Part shown: in pieces, positions 52,404 to 61,940 of the stretch
How positions within the stretch are numbered: position 1 is the first letter of the stretch
How the letters are laid out: each line of letters opens with the position of its first letter
DNA from: Nitrospira japonica
GTDB taxonomy: Bacteria; Nitrospirota; Thermodesulfovibrionia; UBA6902
Reading direction: 5' to 3'
DNA: 62,172 bases
Assembly (NCBI GenBank): GCA_020723105.1
Contig: DYJL01000008.1
Coordinates: 74,564-136,735, forward strand
Notes under the pieces: generated by a model
Database searches by the model: none
What the model was told of the DNA's origin: nothing
Seen by the model: the letters and a program-made list of their open reading frames with translations, nothing else
Program-made: the position numbers and the translations under genes

Positions 52404-52539
52404 TAATACAAACGTATTAAGTAAAGTGTCATTGCGAGGAGTGAAACGACGAAGCAATCTCGTTTCTAATTTTGAGATTGCCACGTTCCTATTAGTCGCT
52501 CGCAATGACAATGTAACGATATCTAATGCGTTTGTATTA
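52404..52539. repeat. MITE-like element (136 bp) sharing ends with 18794 element
   Basis: The ends TAATACAAACGTATTA and TAATGCGTTTGTATTA are near-perfect inverted repeats. The core holds GTCATTGCGAG / CTCGCAATGAC and GAAGCAATCTC / GAGATTGCC. The right end provides the stop codon (TAA) of the TorD-like gene at 52537-52539. Confidence 0.75.
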
Positions 52540-53196
52540 GTTGCCTCCGCCTTTCAGCACGTTTTTGAGATACTCCATATCAGCTTTAATAATGGTGTGC
52601 GTACAGTCGGCAAGGTTTTTATAAAATGAATTTCCTGCGCCGTCTTTTACCTGCCTGGCAAACTGCGGCACCCAGGCGCCAAGATGCTGCTTCATAAAAT
52701 CGTTCTGTATCTGAAGATTTTTTTGCGCCTCATCCTGATTTGAATTGCGATAAGCCTCAATCTCTCTGGATATCAGATAGTACATAAACTCCAGCTCTAC
52801 AGATATATGATCAGGTATATCTTTCTGGTCCGGATCCATTTCAACTCCAGCCCGTCTGTAATATCTCACTGCATCAACAGTTGTTTCACCCATGACAGTC
52901 CTGACTCCCTCAAGATATGTTGAACCGTATGGAGGGGCAATGAGCTGCAATGGTCCTACAAACAATGCAGAATAATCAATAAGTATATCCTGGACAGAAT
53001 GTGCCGCAAGTGCCTCATCCATATTTTTTGCGAGAGATACGGCTTCACTATAAACAGGTTCTAATGCGGCAGCCAGATTTTTTGCCAATCCTTCTTCAAT
53101 AAATTCCTGGCCAGGCTTGCAATAACATGCTGACAGGAGCCTGTAAACATCCGCTCTGTAGGCCTCGTTTTGAATGAATTCATCAGTAAGCTGCAT
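52537..53196 (-). CDS. TorD/DmsD-family molybdoenzyme chaperone
   Basis: A 219-residue helical protein. RADVYRLLSACYCKPGQEF, DILIDYSALFVGPLQLIAPPYGSTYL and DHISVELEFMYYLISREIEA are the conserved TorD segments (the Y..LF.GP...PYGS region and the E-L-x-F-M helix). Such chaperones bind the Tat signal of their enzyme and aid cofactor insertion; the likely client is the catalytic subunit at 54334. It lies after that operon's terminator, with its own ribosome-binding site (GGGAGGTTTTTAG). Its stop codon lies in a mobile-repeat end. Confidence 0.9.
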   Translation of the reverse strand: MQLTDEFIQNEAYRADVYRLLSACYCKPGQEFIEEGLAKNLAAALEPVYSEAVSLAKNMDEALAAHSVQDILIDYSALFVGPLQLIAPPYGSTYLEGVRTVMGETTVDAVRYYRRAGVEMDPDQKDIPDHISVELEFMYYLISREIEAYRNSNQDEAQKNLQIQNDFMKQHLGAWVPQFARQVKDGAGNSFYKNLADCTHTIIKADMEYLKNVLKGGGN

Positions 53197-53374: not shown

Positions 53375-54268
53375 TTACCTGTTGCTGAATTTGCCGACAT
53401 AGAATACGTTTGGTCTGCTCTTTCCTGTTGTGGTTGGGGTTGTAAGAACCACTTTTCTCAGGTAAGTGTAAGACTTTCCTGCCAGAACTTTTGCTCCACT
53501 GATAGCGCTGCCATCAATGATAAGCTCTCTGGCCTGTGCAGGACATGCCATAACACAATAAGGCCTTCTGTCGCCTGCATTCTCTGTTGCACCGAGTGTG
53601 GCATCCTTAAGTCTGTGGATACAGAAATAGCACTTCTCAACATTACCCGGAGTCCTCAGGTCATTTACATCAACACCGGTTACTGGAGTATAAGTCCAGC
53701 TGTTCCTGTAAGCAGGTGCGATATCTGTCATGGTTACTGCATCTCTTACTTCAGATTCAGATGCTGTACAGTCCAGAACAGCCTGCTGACTGCTGGTCAG
53801 ATATCCATAAGGCTCAGATAAGGTTGGGTTATAGCTTATTACGCTAAACTGTGCTCTCTGTGCTCCGACATTTGCTGTGCTATAGGGGCAGGCCCTCTGG
53901 CACAGACGGCAGCCAATACATCTGCTGTCGTCATGGAGAACGATACCGCCATTGGCAGCATTGAGTTTATACATGGCCTTTCTTCCACCACTTGGAAGGC
54001 CGGGCTGAGGCTCGCAGGTAGTATCTGCTACAGGCGCTACAGGACATGCTGCTACGCATGCAGGATTTGTGCAGTGATTGCAGTTGACCGGCAGGGCGGT
54101 CCACTTTGTGTTTGGGAAAGACCCTGTTGTTTCTGTAATGAAGTCAGCCCTGTTAAAGGTCTGTCCTGAGCCTCTCTTGGGTGTATTGTTTCCAAGCTTA
54201 CAGGATATGGCGCAAGTTCCGCAGCCTACGCACTTTGATAAATCAATTTTCATTTTATATTGTGGCAT
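53375..54268 (-). CDS. Four-cluster 4Fe-4S subunit of molybdopterin oxidoreductase (DmsB/NrfC-like)
   Basis: About 297 residues from MPQYKMKIDLSKC at 54268, which has AAAGGAGATAAGATT upstream; the ATG at 54286 is part of that leader. Cluster motifs: CVGCGTCAISC, CNHCTNPACVAACP, CIGCRLCQRACPY, and CYFCIHRL...CVMACPAQA. It has no signal, so it would be exported with the Tat-dependent catalytic subunit. It passes electrons between the catalytic subunit and the next redox partner, here probably the tetraheme cytochrome. Confidence 0.92.
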   Translation of the reverse strand: MPQYKMKIDLSKCVGCGTCAISCKLGNNTPKRGSGQTFNRADFITETTGSFPNTKWTALPVNCNHCTNPACVAACPVAPVADTTCEPQPGLPSGGRKAMYKLNAANGGIVLHDDSRCIGCRLCQRACPYSTANVGAQRAQFSVISYNPTLSEPYGYLTSSQQAVLDCTASESEVRDAVTMTDIAPAYRNSWTYTPVTGVDVNDLRTPGNVEKCYFCIHRLKDATLGATENAGDRRPYCVMACPAQARELIIDGSAISGAKVLAGKSYTYLRKVVLTTPTTTGKSRPNVFYVGKFSNR

Positions 54269-54290
54269 AATCTTATCTCCTTTCATTTTA

Positions 54291-54333: not shown

Positions 54334-57030
54334 TTATACTTTTACTATTTTTACCTTGGTACAGGCATTCCTTACAGTAGCGCCGCTTAAGCGTTCATAT
54401 TCTGCAGGAATTACTGCGTTATTATTACCACCATTAGGTACGCTGCCAAAGGTCTTTGCAGCATATCTTCCGGTTGCCCAGTGTCCCTGACCATAGGCTT
54501 TTGCAACAGTTCCCTGTCTTACGCCGTTCCATACCTTCACCTTACAGGTAATACCAACTGTATTTGAAGGGGATGTAATCTGAACTGTATCACCGGTTTT
54601 CACGCCGATTGCAGCTGCGTCAACAGGGTTAATCTTGACAACATCTTTCCACTTCTCATCACCAGGATCGCATGACTTGAATTCATGGTACCAAGGAGAG
54701 TTCTGGCTTCTGCCTTCACGGTTAAGTCTGGACTTGTAGTCAATGAAGGTGTAGTTGTATCCTGATGCAGAAGCGATCTTTGGACTTTCCCAGTGCGGCA
54801 TAAGGGCATACATATCGCCTATTCCAGATCCAATACCGGCTGCTGTGTCCGTATAGTTAATTGCCGTCATTATACCTTGATAAGTGGTAGAGTGAGATGT
54901 CTTATGTGCAGTAAGAGCTGTTGCAAGTTTGCTTGAGGCATTATAGAACTCGATCTTTCCGCTCTTTGTGCCAAAGGACTTGGTCATAGTTGTATCACCA
55001 ACTGCATATCTCCACATTACGCCTCTTCCATTAGAATCGAAATCAGAGGAGCCATATGTCACCTGGACTATACCGTTACCAGCGCCTTTACCTGTGCCAT
55101 ATGCAGTAGGATTATATGTAGTTGATGTGATATTGGACCATTGGGTATTCCTGTTTGATGAAGAGCCGGAAGTTGCAATATACTTCTGAACATTTGCCTC
55201 AAATTCATCTTCATTTGTCGGAATAGAAGTAAATCCTGACACATAGAATTTATCTTTCAGATAATTGTACATGTTGGCATAGCCCTTGTCGTTGAGCTTT
55301 GACGCCAATGCCCATGTAAGCGCTGTCTCTGATGTCTTTTCCTCCCAGAGTGCAGGAACTGCATCATTCATTAATCCATGTACCATAGATTTTCTTGCCT
55401 TCTGGGCTGTAGATGCCTTAGCCTGCAACATATCGTGCTTTGCAGGAAGAACGATATCAGCAAACATCGCAGTCTCACCTACATGAGTTCCGATAAATAC
55501 GAAATAAGGAGCACCGTTTGGATTTGTTGAGCTAAGCGCCTGTTCCCATATGGTTGCTCCGCCGCAGGAATGAGCAAAGTTACCATGGTTGGTAAGAAGC
55601 ATCTTACATGCATAAGGCATGGCATCCAGTGCATTCTGTGCGATCCTGTTCGTTGACTTAGTGCCGCCGACTGCTATACCGCTTCCAATCTGAGGCATGG
55701 CAAGCTGCACGCCAGATGTTGCATACAGGTCAAAACGCTGTTTTTTGTACGCTGTATAGCCGACAGCATCGGTGTATGCACTTGTTAATGGAGTACCGCT
55801 CTGATAAGCGCTGACGGACGGTAAGTTTGGAAGCGATCCACCGGTATGGTCAAAAGAACCTACAAGACCGTTTAATGCAAGAATCGCCCATCCTGAGTAG
55901 GCTGCTGCTGGAGCCATTGAAACGCCAGGCCCTAACCATGATATGGATTTTGCCTTATCGTCATCAGTGGCTGCGCCTGCGAATTCCTCTGCTACAGTCT
56001 TAATCGTTGAAGCTGATATACCTGTAATTGGTTCAGCCCATTCAGGAGTCCTGTTCTTGAGTTCTGTATTCCACCAGTCTACAAGACCCTTAGTGCCTTT
56101 TTCAGAAAATGTACCTGTTGCGTTAGATCCAGCTGTAAACACATAATCATCAAGACCTACAAAGGTCTTGTTCCACAGGCCTTTTACCAGTATATGATGT
56201 GCCATTGCCAAAGCCATGGCGCCGTCTGTGCCGGGCTTTACAGGAAGCCATCTGTGTGCCTTTGCAGCAGTTGTATTGAGTCTTGGGTCAATTGCAACAA
56301 CCTTCATGCCTGCATTCATACGGGCGCCAAGTTGAGCAATGGCTCCTGCAACCATTCTGTTGGATGATGTTGGATCTACACCCCAAAGCAAAAGATATTT
56401 AGCATTGTCAATATCATAGTCATCATAACCCCATTGACCATTACAATTCTGCCTTGAGAAATTTTCAGCCTCTGCGCAGATAGCGCTATGAGTGATGAAG
56501 TTAGGTGTGCCGTATACAGCATAGATACTGTCAAAAAGCGCTGTCTGTACAGAAGTGTACCTTCCTCTGATCATTACAAGCTTGTGGCCTTCATTCGTGC
56601 TTCTTAAAGCCAGCATCTGTGTGGCAATCAGATCCATTGCCTCATCCCATGAAATTGGCACAAAATTAGGATTATCATTTCTTCCTTTTGTAGCATTGGT
56701 CCTCTTCATAGGTGTCTTTATTCTGTCTGCATCATAGACTTCCTGCAAAGCCATACGGCCCCTTGGACATACATAGCCGTTATGAGTATTGGCATTCTGA
56801 TTTCCTCTTACATCAACAGCTCTCTTGATCCCTGTATCAGTCTGAGTCTTGATTTCTACTGAACACCAGGTGGTGCAACCAAGACACATGCTTGGTGTCC
56901 ATGTAGCGGTTGATTCACTTGCATGAGCCGTTGCAGGCTTCAGAGTATTAAGCAAGGTACCGCTTAAGGCTCCAGCTACGCCGATAGCGGCTGAACCCTT
57001 TAAAAACTCTCTACGATTTATTTTTATCAT
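54334..57030 (-). CDS. Tat-exported DMSO-reductase-family molybdopterin oxidoreductase, catalytic subunit
   Basis: An 898-residue protein. The Tat signal is NRREFLKGSAAIGVAG. The 4Fe-4S site uses C49, C52, C56 and C88 (CLGCTTWC ... YVCPRG). The likely Mo ligand is C185 in HSAICAEAENFSRQ, a pattern I recall from arsenate/selenate/polysulfide-type enzymes rather than formate dehydrogenase or DMSO reductase. WGVDPTSSN and the C-terminal cap (INPVDAAAIGVKTGDTVQI) complete the family. The substrate cannot be assigned; ArrA/ArxA-, PsrA/PhsA- or TtrA-like activities are candidates. Periplasmic. The operon contains a tetraheme cytochrome and FeS subunit but no NrfD-type membrane subunit. Confidence 0.92.
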   Translation of the reverse strand: MIKINRREFLKGSAAIGVAGALSGTLLNTLKPATAHASESTATWTPSMCLGCTTWCSVEIKTQTDTGIKRAVDVRGNQNANTHNGYVCPRGRMALQEVYDADRIKTPMKRTNATKGRNDNPNFVPISWDEAMDLIATQMLALRSTNEGHKLVMIRGRYTSVQTALFDSIYAVYGTPNFITHSAICAEAENFSRQNCNGQWGYDDYDIDNAKYLLLWGVDPTSSNRMVAGAIAQLGARMNAGMKVVAIDPRLNTTAAKAHRWLPVKPGTDGAMALAMAHHILVKGLWNKTFVGLDDYVFTAGSNATGTFSEKGTKGLVDWWNTELKNRTPEWAEPITGISASTIKTVAEEFAGAATDDDKAKSISWLGPGVSMAPAAAYSGWAILALNGLVGSFDHTGGSLPNLPSVSAYQSGTPLTSAYTDAVGYTAYKKQRFDLYATSGVQLAMPQIGSGIAVGGTKSTNRIAQNALDAMPYACKMLLTNHGNFAHSCGGATIWEQALSSTNPNGAPYFVFIGTHVGETAMFADIVLPAKHDMLQAKASTAQKARKSMVHGLMNDAVPALWEEKTSETALTWALASKLNDKGYANMYNYLKDKFYVSGFTSIPTNEDEFEANVQKYIATSGSSSNRNTQWSNITSTTYNPTAYGTGKGAGNGIVQVTYGSSDFDSNGRGVMWRYAVGDTTMTKSFGTKSGKIEFYNASSKLATALTAHKTSHSTTYQGIMTAINYTDTAAGIGSGIGDMYALMPHWESPKIASASGYNYTFIDYKSRLNREGRSQNSPWYHEFKSCDPGDEKWKDVVKINPVDAAAIGVKTGDTVQITSPSNTVGITCKVKVWNGVRQGTVAKAYGQGHWATGRYAAKTFGSVPNGGNNNAVIPAEYERLSGATVRNACTKVKIVKV

Positions 57031-57059: not shown

Positions 57060-57818
57060 TTACCTGTTAACATGACAATCCATGCACATTCCGGAGCCTG
57101 TATTGTCGCCTCTAAGGAAGTAAACCTGTGTACCGGCTGATATACCATCATCCATGGACTTGCCAGGATAATCAACGGTATCATGTACTGAATGGCATGT
57201 GGCGCATTCAAACTGGGTGTAGTTTAAGCCATCTGCGGTAAACAGCGGGTAAGTGCCCTGTGCTCCATAGATTGCCTTTCTGCTTCCACTTCCATAAGGT
57301 AAAGAATCCCTGAAGCCGTTGTTGTCAGCATCTTTTGTCGGATCATATGTAAAGCTTACAGGATGATCGTCCTTCATGCTGCTGCCAAGATTTGACTTGC
57401 CAGACTGAAGCAATGTGCTGGTAAAATCGTATTGAGTGTTTACAGGGGATCCCGGTCCGGGATAATTAACAAGCGAACTTGTTACGCCGTTATGGCAAAC
57501 CATACAGTGAGTTGTGGCATAATGATCGTTATTTGCAGTCCCTACTGGATACTCTTCGTTTACAGTACCCATTGTCATATCAAAACTTGGGCTTGCATAC
57601 AATTGATAGGCAGCAACACCTGTCTGTGTTCTGTTCCATAATGGATATGACCCTTGTCCGGAGTGCGGTGTGTGGCACATTGCACATCTTTCAAGGTCAT
57701 CTCCCGTATCCCTCATAACGTTTACGTCATGAGGAGTGCCTGCAATGATAGCCCAGCCGGAAACGGCAAAGCCCATTGTCAGCATTAAAGCTATTGCTAT
57801 AATGAATGTTTTCTTCAT
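57060..57818 (-). CDS. Tetraheme c-type cytochrome, first gene of molybdoenzyme operon
   Basis: A 252-residue protein with a signal peptide (FIIAIALMLTMGFAVSGWA) and four CXXCH sites (CAMCHTPHSG, CMVCHNG, CATCHSVHD, CMDCHVNR). TPHDVNVMRDTGDDLERC is followed by PLWNRTQTG, a pattern shared with the tetraheme at 45490 (PLWNHSLSQ). It is probably the periplasmic redox partner of the catalytic subunit, whose gene follows by 29 bp. It sits ~200 nt downstream of a sigma-54 promoter and overlaps two short frames. Confidence 0.88.
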   Translation of the reverse strand: MKKTFIIAIALMLTMGFAVSGWAIIAGTPHDVNVMRDTGDDLERCAMCHTPHSGQGSYPLWNRTQTGVAAYQLYASPSFDMTMGTVNEEYPVGTANNDHYATTHCMVCHNGVTSSLVNYPGPGSPVNTQYDFTSTLLQSGKSNLGSSMKDDHPVSFTYDPTKDADNNGFRDSLPYGSGSRKAIYGAQGTYPLFTADGLNYTQFECATCHSVHDTVDYPGKSMDDGISAGTQVYFLRGDNTGSGMCMDCHVNR

Positions 57819-57844
57819 AGTTTATACCTCCTTATTTTTTTCAT
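57815..57844 (-). CDS. Candidate nine-residue leader peptide
   Basis: ATG at 57844..57842 encodes MKKIRRYKL and ends in a TGA that overlaps the cytochrome start (ATGA). The ribosome-binding site AAGGAGGTTCAAGA is excellent. It may couple translation into the cytochrome. A short frame can arise by chance, so this is tentative. Confidence 0.4.
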   Translation of the reverse strand: MKKIRRYKL

Positions 57845-57974
57845 TCTTGAACCTCCTTGATAGTAAGTCTGCTTCTGTTGTTTGCTGAATTGTTAATCTT
57901 TCTTTCCTAACCACCTCCTTTTGTTTTAGCGAGTTGAGTAATGCATTTAAAAAATCTTTCACTTCCTTAACCAT
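57822..57974 (-). CDS. Candidate 50-residue small protein upstream of the cytochrome
   Basis: Reads MVKEVKDFLNALLNSLKQKE, a further 30 charged residues, and a TAA six codons from the cytochrome region's ribosome-binding site. The sequence is amphipathic and helical. GCGAGG abuts the ATG, closer than ideal. It lies in the transcript driven by the sigma-54 promoter at 58033-58047. No family recognised. Confidence 0.4.
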   Translation of the reverse strand: MVKEVKDFLNALLNSLKQKEVVRKERLTIQQTTEADLLSRRFKNEKNKEV

Positions 57975-58032
57975 CCTCGCTTTCTTATTAATATTGGATT
58001 TGTCAGAGTCCTCTGAACTTAACTTTTACAAA

Positions 58033-58047
58033 GCAAAGGGTATGCCA
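58033..58047 (-). promoter_or_regulatory. Sigma-54 promoter for molybdoenzyme operon
   Basis: On the minus strand TGGCAT-ACCCT-TTGC: GG at -24 and GC at -12 with exactly ten bases between. It points to the tetraheme cytochrome ~215 bp downstream. An NtrC-type activator is encoded nearby. Confidence 0.82.
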
Positions 58048-58112
58048 ACAGATAACTACTTAAAATGATGGTATTTTTTTCAAAGAGTCTATTATGCAGG
58101 CTATCATTAATT

Positions 58113-58146
58113 GGTGAAATCACCGACCTAATTTGGTTATTTCACC
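58113..58146. promoter_or_regulatory. Pair of dyad sites, likely activator-binding (UAS)
   Basis: Site 1 GGTGAAATCACC (58113-58124) and site 2 GGTTATTTCACC (58135-58146) are short dyads with centres 22 bp apart, two helical turns. They lie ~65-115 bp upstream of the leftward sigma-54 promoter and ~150-180 bp upstream of the rightward one, proper enhancer distances. The two also form the larger inverted repeat TGGTGAAAT...ATTTCACCA. Confidence 0.7.
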
Positions 58147-58149
58147 AAA

Positions 58150-58192
58150 TTAGGGGGTAGGAAAAAGATAGCGTATAGCGGGTAGCGTGTAG
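58150..58192. repeat. Heptamer repeat tract in the control region
   Basis: TAGGGGG, TAGCGTA, TAGCGGG and TAGCGTG-type units follow the dyad sites. A second short tract (ATTCCCT, ATTCCCT, ACACCCT) lies at 58264-58286. They separate the activator sites from the rightward promoter. Confidence 0.65.
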
Positions 58193-58292
58193 AAATAGAG
58201 TCTGTTTCTGTTGAAAATCGTTTAGTTAATTTGTATGATAACGACATGAAAGCAACTACACACTATTCCCTATTCCCTACACCCTACGTTAG

Positions 58293-58308
58293 TGGCATGT
58301 TAATTGCA
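58293..58308 (+). promoter_or_regulatory. Sigma-54 promoter for receiver-PilZ gene
   Basis: TGGCAT-GTTAA-TTGCA matches the -24/-12 consensus with ten bases between GG and GC. The gene starts ~53 bp downstream. TTAATTGCA is directly repeated just after it. Confidence 0.82.
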
Positions 58309-58360
58309 AGTTAATTGCAAAGTATTTTTTATTTGTAATAAACTTCTGTGAGAAATTAAT

Positions 58361-59047
58361 ATGAAAAAGAAAATCCTTATTGTTGATGACGAAATGCTTA
58401 TACTCAACGGCTTGTCAAAATGCCTCGCTGCCAACGACCATGTTGAAATAAAAACAGTCTCAAACGGCACGAATGCGCTCCATGAAATCAACTCGTATCC
58501 TTATGACCTGTGCTTTCTCGACATCTGCCTGCCTGACAGCAACGGCCTGGACATCATGAAGCAGATAAAGGACACTTCCCCTCAAACCAAGGTCGTTATC
58601 ATGACGGCCTATCATATAAGCGGCGACATGAAGAAGGAAATTGAAGACAATGCCTTTCATTTCGTTGGAAAACCCTTTGACCTGGCGCAGATAAAAACCA
58701 TTGCAGAGTTGGCATTAGGTCCTGAAAAGAGTCCGGAAGATAATAAAATTCGCGAACAGGACTCCAAAACAGGCAGGCAATTCAAAAGGAAATCCTTTAC
58801 AAAGCCTCTGGACTATTTCGCAGGGGTATTTGAAGACGGCGAGTTGAAGCTGCTGACGCTCAGAGGAGATATAGTTGACATAAGTGACGGCGGCATCGGC
58901 ATTAAAACAGACTACCATCTCAGGCCGGGTTATATGATAAGGTTCTCCTCAGAGATAATTTCTCACGAAGTGGGAATCGTTAAATGGTGCACTCCTCTTA
59001 ATAAAGAGGCCTACAGAGCCGGTATCGAGTTCATGAAAAGAGCATGA
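58361..59047 (+). CDS. Response regulator with PilZ domain
   Basis: A 228-residue protein. Receiver: DD at residues 9-10, phospho-acceptor D54 in CFLDICLPDSNG, VIMTAYH and VGKPFDLAQ. After a charged linker, residues ~140-228 resemble PilZ: RGDIVDISDGGIGIKTDYHL (the D/NxSxxG motif) and AGIEFM. The upstream RxxxR part is seen as RQFKRKSF. It may bind cyclic-di-GMP. It has a sigma-54 promoter and likely shares control with the molybdoenzyme operon. Confidence 0.85.
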   Translation: MKKKILIVDDEMLILNGLSKCLAANDHVEIKTVSNGTNALHEINSYPYDLCFLDICLPDSNGLDIMKQIKDTSPQTKVVIMTAYHISGDMKKEIEDNAFHFVGKPFDLAQIKTIAELALGPEKSPEDNKIREQDSKTGRQFKRKSFTKPLDYFAGVFEDGELKLLTLRGDIVDISDGGIGIKTDYHLRPGYMIRFSSEIISHEVGIVKWCTPLNKEAYRAGIEFMKRA

Positions 59048-59106: not shown

Positions 59107-60483
59107 TCATTCCAGTCCAAACTTCTTTATCTGATATCTCAGGGAATCGTAACTGATCTTAAGCAGTTTTGCAGTGAGGGTCTTGTTATTTCCGGTCCTC
59201 TGAAGCGCCTGCATAATCAAATCCTTTTCAATCTCATCAAGTGATACGCCTTCATCAGGGAGAATGCATCTGTTATTTGTGTAGCAAACTGTTCTCGTGG
59301 CCTCCAGAGGCAATTGCTTGTCGCTTATGAACTCGGTGTTTTCAAGCACCACAAGCCTTTCTACTACATTCCTTAATTCCCTGACATTGCCGGGCCATGT
59401 ATAGGAAAGAAGGACCTTCTCTGCCTCCGGAGCGAACCCCTTGGGATTGCTCTTTTTATATTCCGCTGTAAAGTATGAAAGGAAATGCGATGCAAGGGTA
59501 AGTATGTCCTCTTTCCTTTCCCTCAAGGGAAGTATGTGCAGGGAAAACGTATTCAGCCTGTAAAATAAATCCAGCCTGAAGTCTCCTCTATCTACAGCTT
59601 CCTGGAGGTTTCTGTTTGTGGTGGCAATTATAGTGACCTCTATCGGCATCTCCTGTTTGCCGCCAATGCGCCTTATAGTCCTTTCTTCAAGCACTCTCAG
59701 AAGTTTGCTCTGCAAACCTATCTTCATGTCGCCTATTTCATCCAGCAATATAGAGCCGCCATTAGCCAGTTCAAAGAGTCCCTTCTTATCTGTTCTGGCG
59801 TCTGTAAAGGCGCCCTTCTCATAGCCAAACAATTCGCTCTCAAGGAGAGTTTCAGGCAGGGCCGTGCAGTTAATTGTAATAAAAGGCGCGCACCTCAAGG
59901 TGCTGTCCCTGTAAATCAATGAATGAACAAACCGTGCCATGCGCTCCTTACCAGTACCGCTTTCTCCCGTGATAAGGACTGTTGAGACACCTGCCATTGC
60001 CAGCTTTGCAGCCTTCTCCTGTAATTCCTTTATGACCTTTGACTCGCCCACGATATCTTTTTTAAATGTCTCCAGATATACCTTTCTCAGATAATCAACT
60101 TCGTGCCTAAGCCTTCCCTTCTCAAGGATTTTCTCTATGACAATCTTTACTTCTTCTATATTAAGAGGCTTTGTCAGGTAATCTGTTGCGCCAATTTTCA
60201 TGGCCTTGACTGCGGTCTCTGCAGTGTCGTCTGCAGTAAGCATAATAACCTCTGTGTCTATTCCTTTATCCTTGATCTCCTGAAGGATGTCCAGGCCATT
60301 TGTTTCAGGCATGTTGACATCCAGCATTACTATGTCAGGCGCCCAGGTGCGTATTTTTTCAAGGACCTCTACGGGACGGGTCTCTGCCATTACATTATAC
60401 CCCTGCTTTTTCAGAGACCTTGAAAGCATTGAAACGATAAGCTCCTCATCATCAAGGAGAAATATTTTGCTATTGTTTTTCAT
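59107..60483 (-). CDS. NtrC-family sigma-54 response regulator
   Basis: A 458-residue protein. Receiver with phospho-acceptor D55 (IVMLDVNMPE). AAA+ domain: Walker A GESGTGKE at 173-180, GAFTDA at 224-229 (variant of GAFTGA), Walker B GGSILLDEIGDM. C-terminal Fis-type HTH (IMQALQRTGNNKTLTAKLLK). It should activate the two sigma-54 promoters at 58033 and 58293. Its start is five bases from the kinase stop: one operon. Confidence 0.95.
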   Translation of the reverse strand: MKNNSKIFLLDDEELIVSMLSRSLKKQGYNVMAETRPVEVLEKIRTWAPDIVMLDVNMPETNGLDILQEIKDKGIDTEVIMLTADDTAETAVKAMKIGATDYLTKPLNIEEVKIVIEKILEKGRLRHEVDYLRKVYLETFKKDIVGESKVIKELQEKAAKLAMAGVSTVLITGESGTGKERMARFVHSLIYRDSTLRCAPFITINCTALPETLLESELFGYEKGAFTDARTDKKGLFELANGGSILLDEIGDMKIGLQSKLLRVLEERTIRRIGGKQEMPIEVTIIATTNRNLQEAVDRGDFRLDLFYRLNTFSLHILPLRERKEDILTLASHFLSYFTAEYKKSNPKGFAPEAEKVLLSYTWPGNVRELRNVVERLVVLENTEFISDKQLPLEATRTVCYTNNRCILPDEGVSLDEIEKDLIMQALQRTGNNKTLTAKLLKISYDSLRYQIKKFGLE

Positions 60484-60488
60484 ATAAA

Positions 60489-61940
60489 TTACTCTTCACC
60501 TGCATCCTCTCCCCCGTCTCTGCTTATCGGCAAAACTATCCTAAAAGTCGTCCCTTTATCAAGAAAGCTTTTCATACTTATAAAGCCTCCATGCTCTTCC
60601 ACAATCCTTCTCGTAATTGCCAGGCCCATTCCTGTGCCTTTTGTTTTTGTAGTGAAGAAAGGCTGAAAGACTTTAGTTATCACGTCCTGATTAATTCCTC
60701 TGCCGGTGTCAGATACCTCAATTATAATTGAAGTCTCATCCAAAGGGGAGGTATTGATAGTTAAAATGCCTCCGTTCGGCATGGCGTCAACCGCATTTAA
60801 TATTAAATTAAGAAACACCTGCTGCAACTGCATCTGATCCGCCATTATCATCGGGATATCTTTATCAAAATTCTTAACGACAGCAATCTCCCTGGAATTA
60901 TTACTGGAAGCGCCTGACGGGACCCTTACTGAAAACGTCATACAGATGTCAATGATGTTATTTACATTTGTAGGCGTAAACTGCGGGACCGGCGGCTTTG
61001 CAAAATTAAGAAGCCCTTTTAACAGAGCCTCTATGCGCCTTACCTCGCCAATGACCTGTGACAAGACATCCTTGTCATCTTTTGAAAGATTGGAATCCTC
61101 TGATAAGACCTCCATTGACACCTTGATGCCTGCGAGGGGATTTTTAATCTCATGCGCCAAACCTGTTGCTATCTCTCCGCACACCCTTAATTGTTCGGTC
61201 CTCTGTATATTCAGCAACTGTTGTTTTAGGGCGCCTGCCATCTCGTTAAAAGACTCAGCGAGTTCACCAAATTCGTCTTTCAGGGCCTGAACTCTGTAAT
61301 CCAGGTCGCCTGCCTTCAGTCTGCGTGTGGCCTCAAGGATTGTACTTAGAGGACTTGTAACGGCCTTTATAAAAATCAAAGATAAGACAGCAGCCAGCAC
61401 AGGCCCAAGCGCCAGGATGATATACAGCGTGCTTTTTGTGTCGGCTATCTTTCTTAATGCAAGCCGGGTCTTCTCGTCAAGCCTGTTGCTCGTCATGGTT
61501 ATCATATTGTTAACTTCAATAATGAGGTCTTCGCCAATGCTGAAGGCATGGTCTATTTTCACAGGTGTGGCAATTAGTTTGTTGCCGGTAATTAATGCCG
61601 ACGTCACAGATTCTTTATATTCCTGAATATGGTTTCTTAAATCAACAAGCTTACTCTTCACACTCTCATCGTGGTGACAACTGAAACAGGCGTCTGCAAC
61701 TTTTCCCATATTGTTTATTGTGGTTATTATGGCTTTATGGTCTTTCTCCTCTGCCTTAAGAGCGGATTGCACCCGTGAGATATGTATGAGCAGGTGCTCC
61801 CTGAGTATCTCGACCTGATGAAGCTTTATGAGGTTGTCAAGCCTTGAGGTCGTGGTCTCTATGTTAAAAATTATGTAAACAGTCGCTAAAAAAAAGATGA
61901 GGGTAAAAAGGGATAACCCTATGATTATTTTTTTCTTCAT
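60489..61940 (-). CDS. Sensor histidine kinase with CXXCH (heme-c-like) sensory domain
   Basis: A 483-residue protein. TM1 (IIIGLSLFTLIFFLATVYIIF), a ~145-residue extracytoplasmic helical domain with CFSCH at 85-89, TM2 (~172-194), HAMP (195-245), HisKA with H263 (LAHEIKNPLAGI) and HATPase motifs (LNLILNAVDAMPNGG; DTGRGINQDV; GTGMGLAITRRI). The single CXXCH suggests a covalent heme that senses redox or a gas. Partner: the downstream NtrC-type regulator. The decayed sensor at 36058 shares its layout. Confidence 0.93.
   Translation of the reverse strand: MKKKIIIGLSLFTLIFFLATVYIIFNIETTTSRLDNLIKLHQVEILREHLLIHISRVQSALKAEEKDHKAIITTINNMGKVADACFSCHHDESVKSKLVDLRNHIQEYKESVTSALITGNKLIATPVKIDHAFSIGEDLIIEVNNMITMTSNRLDEKTRLALRKIADTKSTLYIILALGPVLAAVLSLIFIKAVTSPLSTILEATRRLKAGDLDYRVQALKDEFGELAESFNEMAGALKQQLLNIQRTEQLRVCGEIATGLAHEIKNPLAGIKVSMEVLSEDSNLSKDDKDVLSQVIGEVRRIEALLKGLLNFAKPPVPQFTPTNVNNIIDICMTFSVRVPSGASSNNSREIAVVKNFDKDIPMIMADQMQLQQVFLNLILNAVDAMPNGGILTINTSPLDETSIIIEVSDTGRGINQDVITKVFQPFFTTKTKGTGMGLAITRRIVEEHGGFISMKSFLDKGTTFRIVLPISRDGGEDAGEE

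Follow-up and report, generated by a model that had tools for sequence, protein, structure and literature searches.

The locus raised the question of whether one regulator could control two divergently transcribed units from a single shared enhancer. An earlier note on the window (the whole stretch of 62,172 nucleotides that was analyzed) had described two σ54 promoters that face away from each other with ideal spacing, two 12-bp dyads between them with centers 22 bp apart, and an NtrC-type activator and sensor kinase close by. It had proposed that one activator could switch both a molybdoenzyme operon and a receiver-PilZ gene. All of these elements were present; the sequences and positions of the dyads were verified, and the promoter positions were right to the base. 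The DNA elements that we started with are as follows.

58033..58047, minus strand: leftward -24/-12 promoter TGGCATACCCTTTGC, an exact match with GG-N10-GC, which would serve the cytochrome/molybdoenzyme operon (predicted start, approximately 58021).
58293..58307, plus strand: rightward -24/-12 promoter TGGCATGTTAATTGC, an exact match with GG-N10-GC, which would serve the receiver-PilZ gene (predicted start, approximately 58319).
58113..58146, no strand: 34-bp putative enhancer array (dyad 1, a 10-bp spacer, and dyad 2), assigned from exact positions and conservation.
58113-58124: dyad 1, GGTGAAATCACC, 12 bp.
58135-58146: dyad 2, GGTTATTTCACC, 12 bp.

The two promoters were the only exact matches to TGGCAYN5TTGC in the 62-kb window, where 0.55 matches were expected; 10 of 100 shuffled windows contained at least two. 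A genome-wide scan of the promoter pattern, which the earlier note had suggested as a check, yielded 25 matches to TGGCAYN5TTGCW versus none to the reversed pattern. The note had also named a lack of rpoN as an argument against σ54 control, and a single rpoN gene was found in the source genome. The leftward promoter was kept in five relatives (G005, G009, G002, G042, and G045), and the rightward promoter was kept in the first three of these and, with one mismatch, in G042.

In the case of the dyads, the pair rather than the single site was informative. Single GGT-N6-ACC sequences were not significant in the window (8 found versus 7.35 expected), and a lone dyad was rejected as evidence because GGTGAWATCACC with up to one mismatch gave 38 mostly imperfect matches, versus 5 for the reversed control. 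Additional 11-bp arms flanking dyad 2 (CCTAATTTGGT...ACCAAATTAGG) were dropped since they were not kept in relatives. The pair at its fixed spacing occurred in only two places in the 3.13-Mb genome when up to 2 to 3 mismatches were tolerated, and the reversed pair had no matches there. Among four congeners (the source genome, G005, G009, and G002), identity was 93% in the dyads, 58% in the 10-bp spacer, and 40% in 60 flanking bases; the corresponding values with G042 and G045 included were 92%, 48%, and 36%. Both promoters were preserved next to the dyads in relatives, while most of the intervening sequence was not. The commonest second dyad among arrays was GGTGATTTCACC, so the 34-bp array is usually a near-palindrome made of two palindromes.

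The genes on either side of the control region are listed below.

57060..57818, minus strand: gene for a multiheme c-type cytochrome at the head of the leftward operon (its translation contains CxxCH motifs and matches Cytochrome_C7 weakly).
54334..57030, minus strand: ArrA-like molybdoenzyme catalytic subunit with a Tat signal (molybdopterin domains; best PDB match, 6cz7 ArrA).
53375..54286, minus strand: Fe-S subunit, ArrB/TtrB/DmsB-like (Pfam and NCBIfam).
52537..53196, minus strand: TorD-type chaperone (PF02613, 106 bits).
58361..59047, plus strand: receiver and PilZ-like domain gene, the predicted output of the rightward promoter (Response_reg, 89 bits).
59107..60483, minus strand: NtrC-type σ54 activator, the proposed reader of the array (receiver PF00072, 94 bits; AAA+ PF00158, 210 bits; Fis-type helix-turn-helix PF02954, 49 bits).
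60489..61940, minus strand: sensor histidine kinase with HAMP and a periplasmic CFSCH at residues 85 to 89 (Pfam).

The molybdoenzyme was closest to ArrA, though it scored 683 bits against an ArrA NCBIfam equivalog cutoff of 1600. Beyond torD, the minus-strand neighbors encoded a ferredoxin-like protein, a peptidyl-prolyl isomerase, and another multiheme cytochrome. On the right, the receiver-PilZ gene was followed by the convergent regulator and kinase genes. Its PilZ-like domain scored 20.2 bits against a Pfam cutoff of 22.5, and the RxxxR (RQFKR) and DxSxxG (DISDGG) motifs were both present.

Two features of the cytochrome leader were observed in passing. A 9-codon open reading frame (ORF), MKKIRRYKL (57815-57844, minus strand), has its own GGAGG site, and its TGA overlaps the cytochrome ATG; a short ORF of 8 to 9 codons with this overlap was kept in G005, G009, G002, G042, and G045 and may encode a coupled leader peptide. 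A conserved GGAGGTGG block at approximately 57908-57921 (minus strand) had no obvious start codon.

Response regulators of the NtrC/AtoC type activate σ54 promoters from two-site upstream activating sequences, which consist of paired dyads upstream of the -24/-12 elements. The system described here shares the receiver-AAA+-Fis activator, the paired dyads placed before -24/-12 promoters, and a kinase encoded next door. It differs in the dyad sequence GGTGAAATCACC, in the 22-bp separation of the centers, in an array common to two divergent promoters, and in the σ54 contact loop of the regulator, which is GAFTDA where the NtrC-type test motif is GAFTGA. Nearly all homologs of the regulator had GAFTDA, and a few had GSFTDA. 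The regulator also scored far below the NCBIfam equivalog cutoffs for NtrC proper (355 bits versus 558.6) and AtoC (429 bits versus 714).

The CxxCH c-heme motif of the kinase was found at the equivalent place in 19 homologs. The sensor may bind heme and sense redox state or a gas. Such a motif is known from sCache_heme (DUF3365/Tll0287) sensors, which are found on histidine kinases among other proteins (PMC12889525). The sensor region here, unlike sCache_heme, matched no Pfam family and was outlined as helical rather than Cache-like in a low-confidence structure model (three sequences; pLDDT, 59); therefore, it is not obviously the known heme-Cache domain (PMC12889525). A PDB sequence search with this region returned nothing significant.

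Based on these features, we propose that two dimers of the adjacent regulator use the 34-bp double dyad as their upstream activating sequence. The neighboring kinase, with heme redox state or a gas ligand as its putative signal, would phosphorylate the regulator, which would then assemble on the array and loop to σ54-RNA polymerase at the divergent promoters. Induction would follow leftward for the cytochrome/ArrA-like molybdoenzyme operon and rightward for the receiver-PilZ gene.

The comparison with other genomes indicated that the array is inherited with the kinase and regulator, which fits this proposal. A scan of 120 relatives yielded array matches in 20 genomes and no match to the reversed pattern in any of them. 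For the co-occurrence test, only genomes with matches on both strands were counted as array bearing; one-strand-only matches (G001, G012, G021, and similar genomes) were set aside as likely chance. Across 61 genomes, 8 had the array and a close kinase ortholog, 1 had the array only, 1 had the kinase only, and 51 had neither (Fisher p = 2.7e-8, a value that overstates independence because the genomes are related). In the array-bearing exception, G050, the kinase is longer and the regulator is 61% identical; the exception with a kinase and no array, G013, has no regulator in the 19 kb around the kinase. An exact collection-wide scan for the 30-bp core produced 31 hits, and 17 of these were full arrays with at most one mismatch. 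Thirteen of the 17 were in genomes with a regulator homolog of at least 57% identity (11 cases) or a kinase ortholog (2 cases, G041 and G045, in which the contig ends at the expected regulator position). None of the 14 remaining, poorer core hits was in a genome with such a regulator homolog (best, 46%) or its kinase, and several were inside coding regions.

The architecture was also conserved. The promoter-array-promoter layout was found in G005, G009, G002, G041, G042 (plus-strand promoter with one mismatch), and G050, as well as in the Syntrophus/Deltaproteobacteria group of the Desulfobacterota (L103, L106, L112, and L115), and kinase and regulator homologs often adjoined it in both the Nitrospirota relatives and the Desulfobacterota. 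In two Syntrophus contigs (L103 and L112) and a deltaproteobacterial bin (L115), the order was nearly identical: kinase, regulator, receiver gene, σ54 promoter, array, and σ54 promoter. The named contigs that carry arrays include Thermodesulfovibrionia and Nitrospirota bins. Separately, an additional array with dyads 24 bp apart and a 12-bp spacer lies in this region of the G041 contig C43 (L083:7516-7551), between its own divergent σ54 promoters.

The layout bears on the possibility that the array serves one promoter only and that something else drives the other. Such an arrangement could explain G045, in which cytochrome genes take the place of the rightward promoter and receiver gene, and G053, in which the array has a promoter on a single side. 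However, the array is flanked by both promoters in four congeners and in Syntrophus, with its sequence conserved, and we consider service to a single promoter unlikely.

The genes behind the arrays were mainly those for multiheme c-type cytochromes; others encoded receivers, an NHL-repeat protein, a cytochrome b561, and a protein with a weak porin match. In L103, the downstream genes comprised a weak porin match and multiheme cytochromes. Other targets were DUF3466 proteins beside secretion genes (L079 and L086) and a PAS protein (L089). Respiration is the common theme of the array targets, and the circuit may have a role in extracellular electron transfer.

The earlier note had predicted that the dyads would recur only near σ54 respiratory promoters. 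This was largely true across genomes but only partly so in the source genome, where the sole other array (contig C54, L003:1501-1534) lies downstream of a 47-codon Cys-rich ORF and of the -24/-12 promoter of this ORF (L003:1745..1731), which is the σ54 promoter nearest to the array. The ORF has a Shine-Dalgarno site and no Pfam match. A downstream enhancer is possible in this case; a small number of downstream enhancer sites have been reported for Desulfovibrio vulgaris (PMC4641369). In addition, arrays that read GGTGAAATCACC-N10-GGTCATTTCACC were found in four genomes of Desulfobacterota that lack the regulator (L102, L105, L108, and L119). The position of the C54 array and these four cases count against an enhancer read by the adjacent regulator.

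In two of those four genomes and in L099, the array lies next to a complete or fragmentary dCache-PAS activator. Because arrays occur without the regulator and dCache-PAS activators occur beside arrays, a second activator family may read the same array sequence. Arrays with GGTCATTTCACC as the second dyad form a subclass (L099:4345-4378, L105, L108, and L119). In L099, L108, and L119, the array is upstream of dCache-PAS proteins, with a complete σ54 activator in L099, and L099 and L105 have a promoter-like TGGCACA-N5-TTGAT nearby, with TTGA replacing TTGC.

The source genome itself contains a paralogous circuit (G000 contig C34, L123:8408-12420) with its own 613-amino-acid kinase with CSGCH, a regulator that is 59% identical, and a receiver-PilZ protein that is 41% identical; there was no window-type array beside it. 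The array could be an enhancer whose main reader is another σ54 activator, either this paralog or a one-component activator like the dCache-PAS protein found beside a similar array in some Desulfobacterota. The distribution of the array argues against this: this array is missing from the congeners that have only the paralog (G003 and G008), in which altered arrays are found instead, and the array tracks the window-type kinase across genomes. We regard a different main reader as somewhat less likely again than an array that serves one promoter. The recognition helix SYDS(L/F)RYQ(I/L)KKFG was common to the Nitrospirota and Syntrophus regulators that have this array, and altered arrays, such as GGTCAAATGACC-N10-GGTCATTTAACT, were found near some regulators with another helix (TYDAFRSHLKKYG).

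Helical phasing provided a further line of evidence. Gaps of less than 100 bp between the array edge and the promoter element clustered near 64, 75, 87, and 95 bp, and they fit a period of 10.5 bp (R = 0.73; permutation p ~0.001) when one value was taken per orthologous promoter group. The leftward promoters of relatives differed by about 10 bp in this gap (64 to 65 versus 73 to 75 bp), and steps of about one helical turn are what short-distance DNA looping demands. Longer gaps (at least 139 bp, including the 146-bp rightward gap here) were not informative on phasing. The elements therefore have the form of an upstream activating sequence, with paired dyads in a fixed register that are upstream of, and phased with, a promoter. 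Compact palindromes are also typical of many operators, and the dyads could in principle belong to an unrelated repressor or activator, with the σ54 promoters independent of them. The constant 22-bp pairing, the helical steps in promoter distance, and the coinheritance with a σ54 activator system make such an operator very improbable. Individual short patterns do arise by chance in 62 kb, but the matches in 20 genomes against none for the reversed control over 120, together with the island of conservation at the dyads, leave chance matches with almost no probability.

The comparative evidence from dyad and promoter conservation, kinase and regulator coinheritance, and helical-turn spacing moved the shared-enhancer reading from plausible to well supported. 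Specifically, it is very probable that the double dyad is an enhancer bound by the adjacent NtrC-type regulator and that it activates both divergent promoters, as the earlier note had proposed for the molybdoenzyme operon and the receiver-PilZ gene.

A literature search found no description of such a σ54 enhancer circuit; among the papers searched, the text GGTGAAATCACC appeared only in an unrelated Aspergillus mycotoxin study, and motifs shown only in figures are unsearchable. Two D. vulgaris systems are similar in part (PMC4641369). DVU2106 is a σ54 activator listed with GAFTDA, and its targets, DVU2105-2103 and DVU2107-2109, flank it. The loop and the two flanking target operons resemble those found here, but DVU2106 is a one-component regulator of cell division genes, whereas the system described here is two-component and respiratory. 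DVU3142 activates the octaheme cytochrome operon ohc, from which it is reported to be divergently transcribed, and thus also controls a neighboring multiheme cytochrome operon; however, it is a one-component σ54 activator, and the available text describes no shared double-dyad enhancer for ohc (PMC4641369).

We consider it somewhat more probable than otherwise that these circuits form an undescribed family in the Nitrospirota and Desulfobacterota, in which a GAFTDA regulator, paired with a kinase whose helical periplasmic sensor carries a c-heme and belongs to no established class, acts through a palindromic enhancer of two dyads on divergent σ54 promoters of multiheme cytochrome genes, and that related circuits have shifted their dyads and kept the 22-bp register. 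The general kind, a σ54 enhancer circuit, is well known; conservation across two phyla, the heme-linked kinase, and the cytochrome targets add interest. The paralogous circuits provide a natural series in which changes in the dyad sequence seem to accompany changes in the recognition helix while the two-turn array architecture is fixed. For uncultured bacteria in which regulation has been little studied, these results provide an operator that is defined to the base and can be tested, together with a candidate for its cognate regulator, for genes of respiration and possibly of extracellular electron transfer.
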